From contig CAMENP010000005.1 of assembly GCA_945928575.1 (NCBI GenBank), positions 1 to 64,000 of the forward strand: a stretch of DNA of 64,000 nt. The letters are read 5' to 3'. The DNA comes from an uncultured Butyrivibrio sp. GTDB lineage: Bacteria; Bacillota; Clostridia; Lachnospirales; Lachnospiraceae. The stretch's first letter is position 1; each line of letters opens with the position of its first letter. Shown piece after piece: positions 49,756 through 52,142 of the stretch. Under the pieces are notes generated by a model. That model had not been told where the DNA came from, did no database searches, and saw nothing but the letters and a program-made list of their open reading frames with translations. Made by a program: the position numbers and the translations under genes.

Positions 49756-50946
49756 TCAGTCCATATTGTCTCTTATTTTTATCATGAAATTGTATAAGCC
49801 GTTCTGCCACACAGGATTATGATGTACGCCGAATACATCATAAAAAACATGTTCAATTCCGGCCTCATCCAATTTCTTATCCAGATCATAGGACACATCT
49901 CCGCAGATATAATCCTCTCTGCCGACCATAACCATAAGAGTCCCAAATCCGCCAGCTCTGTCATCTATTTTCAATTCATCCAACAGCGGAGGGAAATAAT
50001 TATTATCTCCTTTAATCACATCGGCTGCCGAAAATACTCCAACATAATCAAACTTGTCCTGATTATGAAATGCTATCGCCATTGAATTCCTTGCACCCAT
50101 TGAATTTCCGGCAATTGCGGTATGCTTTTTGTCCGTACACACCGAAAAATGTTCGTTAACATATGGCATAAGGCTGCCTATAAGATCTTCCTCCGTCCTG
50201 TCAAAAGCCTCGCATGTCTTTGCGTAACTCATACCTGATGTGGAATTATTCTCATTGACATTGGAATTTGGCATAACCACAACCATTTCGGGGCAATTAT
50301 ATAAATAATGCATATTCTTTATGATAACATCCGCATTCTTATGAAGCCACGTAACTTCGCTTCCGCCAAGTCCGTGCAAAAGATATAACACAGGATATTT
50401 CTTATTTTCATCATAGTTTTCCGGAAGGACAACTTTTGCCGGGCGCAATTTTCCCGTAACTTCAGAGTAATATTCTATATCTATGGCTTCACTGTATGTA
50501 TACCCGGGAATCCTGTCTTTGTAAAAACAGTTGAAATAAAGTGAATGGGATATCCCGTCCTTTCCGGTAACAGGCTTGATATTTTCAGCTATGCCGGAAT
50601 ATATCGGCATAAATCTCACTCCGTAACCGGCTCCCGCAAGTATAACTGCCGTTGCCGGCACAATCAGCAGAATTTTCTTCACGGTCTTGGGGAATCTGAC
50701 TTTGAATTTTATTTTGATCTTAATCGCAAATATCAATGCCGTTATAGCTGTGATTACATACAAAAAAAGTGCTGCAATATTCTCAAATACTCCATCAAGC
50801 ATCACTATTGCCGTTACGCACAGGCACAATTCAATTCCGGTCACGATAAACATAATTCCCGGAAGCTTTTTCTTCTTAACTTTAAATACGACCCCTCCCG
50901 CCAGGCTTAACAACGCAAGCGCCACTGTCACAACAAATCTTATCAT
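49756..50946 (-). CDS. Membrane-anchored alpha/beta-hydrolase esterase (Esterase-D/putative feruloyl or acetyl esterase-like)
   Basis: Several N-terminal TM helices, then YPVLYLLHGLGGSEVTW, AIAGNSMGARNSMAIAF, VFGVHHNPVWQNGL. Confidence 0.85.
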   Translation of the reverse strand: MIRFVVTVALALLSLAGGVVFKVKKKKLPGIMFIVTGIELCLCVTAIVMLDGVFENIAALFLYVITAITALIFAIKIKIKFKVRFPKTVKKILLIVPATAVILAGAGYGVRFMPIYSGIAENIKPVTGKDGISHSLYFNCFYKDRIPGYTYSEAIDIEYYSEVTGKLRPAKVVLPENYDENKKYPVLYLLHGLGGSEVTWLHKNADVIIKNMHYLYNCPEMVVVMPNSNVNENNSTSGMSYAKTCEAFDRTEEDLIGSLMPYVNEHFSVCTDKKHTAIAGNSMGARNSMAIAFHNQDKFDYVGVFSAADVIKGDNNYFPPLLDELKIDDRAGGFGTLMVMVGREDYICGDVSYDLDKKLDEAGIEHVFYDVFGVHHNPVWQNGLYNFMIKIRDNMD

Positions 50947-51042
50947 ATCGTCCTCCTTGGTGCTTTATCTTTCATCTGATTTTACGCCATAAACCACACT
51001 TTAAGTCAAGCAGATTTTGCAATCCAGCATTTTTCGGGGGAT

Positions 51043-51447
51043 GTCTACATTTCTTGCCACCTTTCCTCCATTAGGTAGAGATTCCCGTGAATTTCCCAAG
51101 GTATGTCTACATTTCCTGCCTCATTCGCTCCCTTAGGCAGAGTTTTCCGCGCAGTTCCTGGGCACCGTCTACATTTCTTGTCACCTTTCCTCCATTAGGT
51201 AGAGATTCCCGTGAATTTCCCAAGGTATGTCTACATTTCCTGCTTCATTCGCTCTCTTAGGTAGAGATTTCCGCGCAATTCCCAAGGGATGTCTACATAT
51301 CCTGCTTCATTCGCTCCCTTAGGCAGAGTTTTCCGCACAGTTCCCGGGCGCTGTCTACATTCCCGTCTATTATCTTGCTATTAGGCAGACTTCCGCCGGG
51401 TTCCGTCTACATTTCTACCTCATTTTCCACTCTTAGGCAGCCCCTGC
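51043..51447. repeat. Tandem repeat array: seven units, five full 62-bp units, one 52-bp unit, one truncated
   Basis: GTCTACAT at 51043, 51105, 51167, 51229, 51291, 51353, 51405; each unit also carries TTAGG(T/C)AGA. Confidence 0.95.
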
Positions 51448-51562
51448 TTTTATGTAAAATATACAATCCGCTATACCGAATGAGATGAAAAAAGGTCCGC
51501 GAAACAGTGTACCGGAAGATAGTGCGTTATGCAGCGGCTCCGCATTTTGGGCAAAATAAAAA

Positions 51563-51634
51563 AGCGCGAGACGGGGATCGAACCCGCGACCTTCTCCTTG
51601 GCAAGGAGACGCTCCACCACTGAGCCACTCGCGC
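51563..51634 (-). tRNA. tRNA-Gly (anticodon GCC), copy 2, identical to copy 1
   Basis: Same 72 nt as 44158-44229; followed on minus strand by TTTTTATTTTG. Confidence 0.97.
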
Positions 51635-51682
51635 ATATAATGTGCTATGTATTTGTATTGACCTGTGACAGTCACAAGTGAT

Positions 51683-51711
51683 AATATACAACAGGACAAT
51701 TAATTTGTCAA
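51683..51711 (-). promoter_or_regulatory. tRNA-Gly copy 2 promoter
   Basis: TTGACA-N17-TATATT. Confidence 0.85.
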
Positions 51712-51740
51712 GACTATTTTATTATTTTTTTGAGGTTGTA

Positions 51741-52142
51741 ATGTCAGATACTTACAGAGAATGTCTTATGCAATATTGCGGAAAAGAACCGCTGCCGCCG
51801 GGCGAGACGGTTCTTGAATGTGAAATAGAAAGCATGGAGCCGGACGAATGCGGCGGGATTGAAAGCACTTACTTTTTTTCACTCGGAGGCACGGAAATCG
51901 GTTCGATATCTATATATGAAGAAAAAAATACAGTGAATATATTCGGAGTATACCTGGAACCGGATTTCAGAGGGCACGGATACTCACATGAAATGATGTA
52001 CAGCGTGCTTGAAGATTTAATTCCGGACGGAAAGGAGATTCTGCTTGAAGTTGCGGACAACAACAAACCCGCATTCAGCCTGTATACCGGATGCGGGTTT
52101 GAAGTTATTGATTATGTTGAAGTAAATATTACTCAAGATTAG
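51741..52142 (+). CDS. GNAT family N-acetyltransferase
   Basis: VNIFGVYLEPDFRGHGYSHEMMYSVLEDLI...ILLEVADNNKPAFSLYTGCGFEVIDY; start at MSDTYREC. Confidence 0.88.
   Translation: MSDTYRECLMQYCGKEPLPPGETVLECEIESMEPDECGGIESTYFFSLGGTEIGSISIYEEKNTVNIFGVYLEPDFRGHGYSHEMMYSVLEDLIPDGKEILLEVADNNKPAFSLYTGCGFEVIDYVEVNITQD

Follow-up and report, generated by a model that had tools for sequence, protein, structure and literature searches.

An intergenic array of alternating TCTAC/GTAGA half-sites at three-turn spacing beside a tRNA-Gly gene of an uncultured Butyrivibrio, and recurrence of its layout elsewhere

The window analysed here is a 64,000-nucleotide stretch of a contig from an uncultured Butyrivibrio sp. 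It contains a tandem array in the intergenic region between a tRNA-Gly gene and the gene for an esterase-like membrane protein (Table 1). Both neighbours are read on the minus strand, and the array lies upstream of the esterase start. The preliminary description, made from the letters of the window, placed the tRNA gene correctly; the position it gave as the end of the esterase gene, 50946, is the start of that gene. The esterase-like protein has a paralogue (48% identical) elsewhere in the genome. There is no terminator-like site between tRNA-Gly and the array. By eye, the neighbours of the array look like an esterase, a tRNA and a GNAT gene, and no toxin was recognised among them, such as the ToxN/CptN/TenpN-type endoribonuclease gene that a type III toxin-antitoxin RNA repeat directly precedes.

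Table 1. Features of the array and its surroundings in the window.
Feature	Position	Strand	Remarks
Esterase-like membrane protein gene	49756..50946	-	start faces the array
Whole array	51043..51441	.	14 half-sites, TCTAC alternating with GTAGA/GCAGA
A-B dimer, first copy (units 1 + 2)	51043..51166	+	TRF period 124, 94% matches; units 1 and 3 one base apart
Half-site 1, TCTAC	51044..51048	+	more TCTAC at 51106, 51168, 51230, 51292, 51354, 51406
Half-site 2, GTAGA (inverted)	51075..51079	+	more at 51137 (GCAGA), 51199, 51261
Inverted half-sites, continued	51323 (GCAGA), 51385 (GCAGA), 51437 (GCAGC)		in the window array
Exceptional unit 6, 52 bp	51353..51404	+	GCAGA-to-TCTAC gap 21 bp instead of 31
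Truncated unit 7	51405..51441	+	final half-site degenerate (GCAGC)
tRNA-Gly(gcc)	51563..51634	-	array on the tRNA 3' side, about 120 bp away
Promoter-like TTGACA-17-TATATT, ahead of the tRNA	51683..51711	-	consensus match only; number of promoter-like sites not above shuffles

The seven unit starts reported earlier (51043, 51105, 51167, 51229, 51291, 51353 and 51405) are exact, as are the unit lengths of 62, 62, 62, 62, 62 and 52 bp followed by a truncated seventh unit; the last motif ends near 51441. The array is non-coding, with no ORF of at least 60 aa covering it, and a coding repeat was rejected since no ORF spans it. Allowing at most 3 mismatches, the window has 7 occurrences of the pattern GTCTACATTTC-N17-TTAGGTAGA; 100 shuffles that preserve dinucleotides have none. 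Tandem Repeats Finder (TRF) recovers the period of 62 with a score of 330 (75% matches) and a period of 124 with a score of 438 (94% matches). As had been read, a single base of 62 separates units 1 and 3, and units 2 and 5 resemble each other (6 differences). Unit 4 stands between these types, with 13 differences from unit 1, 12 from unit 2 and 10 from unit 5, and units 6 and 7 are diverged. The A-B dimer of about 124 bp suggested in the preliminary description thus stands for units 1-4, in agreement with TRF, and fails as a strict rule because of the intermediate unit 4 and the diverged units 6-7. The dimer looks like a recent duplication, not the organising principle of the array.

The essential feature of the array is instead an alternating 31-bp layout, to which the 62-bp unit is secondary. 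Specifically, a half-site comes every 31 bp, TCTAC in turn with its reverse complement GTAGA (or GCAGA), so that each 62-bp unit consists of two inverted half-sites 31 bp apart. The first reading of the unit as non-coding and tandem was right, and it missed this pair. The half-site intervals are 31 bp eleven times, then 21 bp, then 31 bp to the degenerate final site. An interval of 31 bp is close to three turns of B-DNA, and two sites together take up 62-64 bp, which approximates six turns at about 10.5 bp each. In unit 6 the gap falls 10 bp short of this interval, a difference of about one helical turn. Of the 7 right-hand sites 3 read GCAGA and the last reads GCAGC, so the window array may be partly degenerate.

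The layout is present at about five other places in the genome of the window (G000; contigs named C3, C10, C12, C33 and so on), with different filler between the half-sites, about 5-6 loci in total. The motif of the window itself has one further occurrence, C12:208-432, with a 62-bp period and a spacing of 31/31; this array lies upstream of a phosphoketolase-like gene. A pattern restricted to the layout finds an array at C10:38350-38512 (spacing 32/31), arrays at C33:1-323 and C12:78994-79155 (31/32, GTAGA/TCTGC) and a short element at C3:146459. The C33:1-323 and C12:78994-79155 arrays have the same sequence and are probably one array split by the assembly. In the C33 array one interval measures 39 bp; a half-site is missing there and the phase is broken. 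Dispersal of the unit without conservation of structure had been named in the preliminary description as the finding that would speak against it; other loci do exist, but they keep the layout and not most of the sequence. The exact unit pattern has no match across the genome contig collection, and the relatives searched contain no direct sequence relative of the window array except one weak match inside a coding sequence of G002, another genome in the comparison.

Other tandem families occur in the same genome, of which TRF surveyed about a third (and about a sixth of the sister genome G001 described below). A GC-rich 61-bp intergenic repeat with CCGCGCGG palindromes and TACCC/GGGTA directly adjoins the C12:208-432 array (L065 1-196 = G000:C12:1-196) and is also found at the ends of C4, C6, C19, C23, C25, C27 and C29; it is a likely cause of many assembly breaks. 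In some copies ACCCGC and GCGGGT alternate at 30/31 bp, and the GC-rich arrays are possibly a further variant of the half-site layout. A second family, of 53/105 bp (CTACGAGCAGAAA...CCACTGCC), lies at L065 11591-11760 (G000:C12) and L081 3877-4242 (C27). Further intergenic arrays of 102 bp and 44 bp lie at L065 11828-12093, L065 12522-12655 and L073 782-905, and the 44-bp family has two loci, each beside a common sequence with the palindrome GGTTTCGGAACGAAACC.

Among four sister species the layout is present in one, G001, a complete genome of the same genus in a single 2.52-Mb contig. It has about 14 loci: about eight are single or short elements, and six are arrays of up to 19 half-sites, near 94.8k, 250k, 847k, 1257k, 1825k and 2046k. 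In this genome the half-site is longer, GGTAGAGATTCC. In the 1825k array the filler is unrelated to that of other arrays and the half-sites are GTAGAA, and the spacing is still 32/32. In the curated set, G001 spacings are 31 bp in 24 cases, 32 bp in 33 and 33 bp in 4; over all genomes nearly all spacings are 30-33 bp, and two are 29 bp. Single elements of two half-sites likewise stay at 31-32 bp. In 20-kb stretches taken at even steps and not chosen for arrays, 31 bp is the commonest TCTAC-to-GTAGA distance (7/13 in G000, 6/11 in G001). A reversed-pattern control gives 0 matches against 34 for the layout pattern in G000, and 1 against 56 in G001.

Three features were seen beside arrays, the first two in G001. 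A c-di-GMP-I riboswitch is next to an array in a divergent promoter region (L195 3792-3880), and a match to group II intron D1-D4 lies directly ahead of a half-site array (L186 3536-3704). At L189 3215-3940, the stretch between a tRNA-Gly gene and the array contains a repeated segment of about 240 bp that includes a copy of the 3' end of the tRNA (CCCCGTCTCGCGCTT), a pattern like that of recurrent insertion or duplication at this end of the tRNA.

Outside these two genomes the layout is rare. The three other genomes of the genus are without arrays, with one lone match in G004; the element is therefore not essential in those three of the five genus genomes. In a survey of 298 genomes of the family, only G000 and G001 have the layout, and three lone matches in the other 296 are probably due to chance. 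A strict two-unit layout pattern, searched over 85,462 species genomes, finds 18 stretches. Among these, intergenic 31-bp arrays are present in Ruminococcaceae RUG13936 (three loci) and Ruminococcaceae YRB3002, in two uncultured Clostridia/Firmicutes MAGs and in two related Spirochaetes MAGs, some of their gaps being 29-30 bp. Two Verrucomicrobiales MAGs have 21-bp arrays at many loci (L114, L116-L118, L120-L122, L125, L130), with TCTACC/GGTAGA alternating every 10-11 bp; one of these genomes has 43 and 45 pattern matches on its two strands. The search was keyed on TCTAC, so it is silent on which half-sites are favoured generally, and common descent is not claimed. A viral origin was rejected: viral contigs give 0 matches to the exact unit pattern and 5 to the two-unit layout, against 3 and 6 for two control motifs, and the five look like chance agreement with coding sequence.

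The elements are intergenic as far as checked, and no single gene family is common to their flanks. Five of about 20 elements follow a tRNA gene directly on its 3' side: the window array (tRNA-Gly), the C10 array (tRNA-Glu) and G001 elements at 847k and 865k (both tRNA-Gly) and at 2077k (tRNA-Lys). One more lies 3' of a 23S rRNA gene (G001 1777k). In the stretches surveyed, 1.6% of the intergenic gaps of G001 and 2.9% of those of G000 lie 3' of a tRNA gene; with background rates of 2% and 4%, at least 5 in 20 would arise with a binomial probability of about 4e-5 and 1e-3, respectively, for a pattern noticed after the fact. As in the window, a Spirochaetales MAG has a 31-bp TTCTAC/GTAGAA array directly 3' of a tRNA-Ser gene (L220 / L280). 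The purine-rich filler strand runs in the direction of the upstream transcription unit in about 12 of 15 elements by eye, and G001 elements run mostly along the direction of replication as judged from GC skew.

Half-site and spacing are the features common to all arrays, which points to DNA read by a protein. In no genome do left and right arms pair significantly better than arms reassigned at random among units, and shuffled versions of the window, C12 and C10 arrays fold as well as the arrays themselves. What is kept is thus spacing and half-site rather than a hairpin, which favours a role at the level of DNA. As expected of a phased binding array, the half-sites are conserved, the spacing is close to an integer number of turns and the filler is free; consistent with this, the odd unit of the window is shortened by about one turn. 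Several observations count against the DNA reading. Sister-species and other-taxa arrays fold significantly on both strands, with z down to about -9, the G001 arrays doing so strongly because both arms have the same 12-bp half-site; such folding would also suit RNA or cruciform hairpins. In addition, most elements are oriented like the upstream transcription unit, as an RNA element would be, three of the five genus genomes are without arrays, some gaps in other taxa measure 29-30 bp, the 39-bp interval breaks the phase of the C33 array, and the flanks have no gene family in common.

On balance we put at about even the chance that the array is a cis-acting extragenic DNA element, namely a helically phased binding array for an inferred protein. 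The proposal builds on the observed layout, its recurrence, the spacing conserved among differing fillers, the intergenic position and the frequent place on the 3' side of genes for stable RNAs. The inverted half-sites, with TCTAC/GTAGA as their core and GGTAGAGATTCC as their form in G001, alternate at three-turn spacing and would all lie on the same side of the helix. A DNA-binding protein, perhaps nucleoid-associated, topology-related or a regulatory dimer, would occupy them cooperatively, and the bound protein may mark or insulate the DNA that follows transcription units, tRNA and rRNA genes in particular. The copy number of an array would rise and fall by slippage or unequal exchange.

A role in RNA, for which the orientation along the upstream transcription unit and along replication leaves room, seems to us rather unlikely. 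The array would then be the 3' trailer of tRNA-Gly or, at other loci, the 3' UTR of other genes, in which hairpins with TCTAC/GTAGA feet stop, protect or process the transcript, or else an RNA sponge derived from the trailer. The position of the elements 3' of genes and tRNAs, mostly in the orientation of transcription, fits such a role, as do the lack of a terminator-like site ahead of the window array, the strong folding of the sister-species and other arrays and the changes in C12 that correspond between the two sides (GTAGAC/GTCTAC and GTAGAT/ATCTAC). However, hairpins need no fixed spacing in both types of gap, and neither the arm pairing nor the folding of the window, C12 and C10 arrays significantly exceeds its control. 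No covariance model of Rfam 15 matches the window array at E<5 (the only match in 50500-51800 is the tRNA) or the arrays of the other loci. A known structured RNA is therefore rejected, and the earlier view that the array belongs to no known family is borne out for RNA.

Neutral expansion is also unlikely in our judgement: here the array is an old, dispersed and functionless minisatellite expanded by slippage, and common spacing reflects common ancestry. The recent 124-bp duplication within the window array, the several other tandem families of the genome and the patchy occurrence in the genus agree with it, but it leaves unexplained why half-sites and spacing are kept among arrays of one genome that differ in filler, why single elements of two half-sites hold 31-32 bp, and why elements lie non-randomly 3' of tRNA genes. 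We regard as very improbable a non-autonomous REP/REPIN-type mobile element that a transposase disperses and that gathers in BIME-like arrays. Extragenic position, palindromic character, GTAG in the foot and the occurrence of singles together with regular alternating clusters recall such elements (PMC2817692, PMC3733652), but Y1_Tnp PF01797 (RAYT) is found in 0 of 5 genus genomes while control genomes are positive, GTAG lies inside the dyad, the copy number is low and no target duplication is visible by eye. CRISPR was rejected, as in the preliminary description, since the "spacers" repeat (units 1 and 3) while the "repeats" vary, and no cas genes were recognised by eye among the flanking ORFs. 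TCTAC/GTAGA resembles the stem of the Cas12a crRNA; this likeness was set aside because the arms here are 26 bp apart on both sides.

The arrays share single traits with several known systems. In plasmid centromere and iteron arrays such as sopC, a partition protein binds an inverted pair of sites within each tandem unit, and a unit measures tens of bp. The present arrays have such units and pairs, but the G001 elements are dispersed over some 14 sites of the chromosome, with no clustering at the origin and no adjoining partition genes recognised. NrdR boxes are two sites about three helical turns apart, as here; however, they have another sequence, each is palindromic, and the pair occurs once per promoter, upstream of nrd genes. 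Minisatellites or VNTRs such as MIRU are intergenic tandem units of about 50-100 bp that vary in copy number. MIRU units have sequence in common across loci, whereas our arrays, of similar unit size and position, have in common the layout and not most of the sequence.

The closest likeness in style is to REPs and BIMEs, extragenic palindromes that occur as singles and as regularly spaced alternating clusters (PMC2817692, PMC3733652); BIMEs are protein-binding sites in other bacteria (PMC2817692). Like BIME clusters, the arrays are extragenic, alternate in orientation with regular spacing, occur as singles and clusters and often lie downstream of genes. They nevertheless fail REP membership as judged by comparison. 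A REP is a palindrome of 20-40 bp with an unpaired tag, whereas the arrays repeat a half-site of 5-12 bp at a spacing fixed near three helical turns with filler that differs between arrays; they are without RAYT, and their 5-6 loci in G000 and 14 in G001 are far below the >100 copies per genome usual for REPs. The GTAG-tagged REP superfamily also has GTAG/CTAC at the dyad ends, but GTAG here is within the complementary arm GGTAGAGATTCC/GGAATCTCTACC rather than an unpaired tag at the foot, and the genus is without the Y1 transposase. The text of the paper on that superfamily does not mention Firmicutes or Clostridia (PMC3733652). Literature on palindromic or tandem intergenic arrays in these groups yielded nothing matching.

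There is a fair chance that the arrays are a new class of element. More tentatively, and with somewhat less than even confidence, we suggest that they represent an undescribed class of chromosomal element, in which alternating TCTAC/GTAGA half-sites share one helical face, are bound by a protein and follow stable RNA genes; other Clostridia and Spirochaetes would have similar arrays, and Verrucomicrobiales a version with one-turn spacing (about 10.5 bp). Even if the neutral reading were true, the arrays would plainly show a bacterial minisatellite whose layout has outlived its sequence. If the phased-binding reading is true, they obey a clear rule, with a half-site at every third turn, and might also account for some assembly breaks and for length polymorphism in intergenic regions next to tRNA genes; if read by a protein, they would constitute a chromosomal marking or insulation system outside Proteobacteria, the source of most described REPs and BIMEs.
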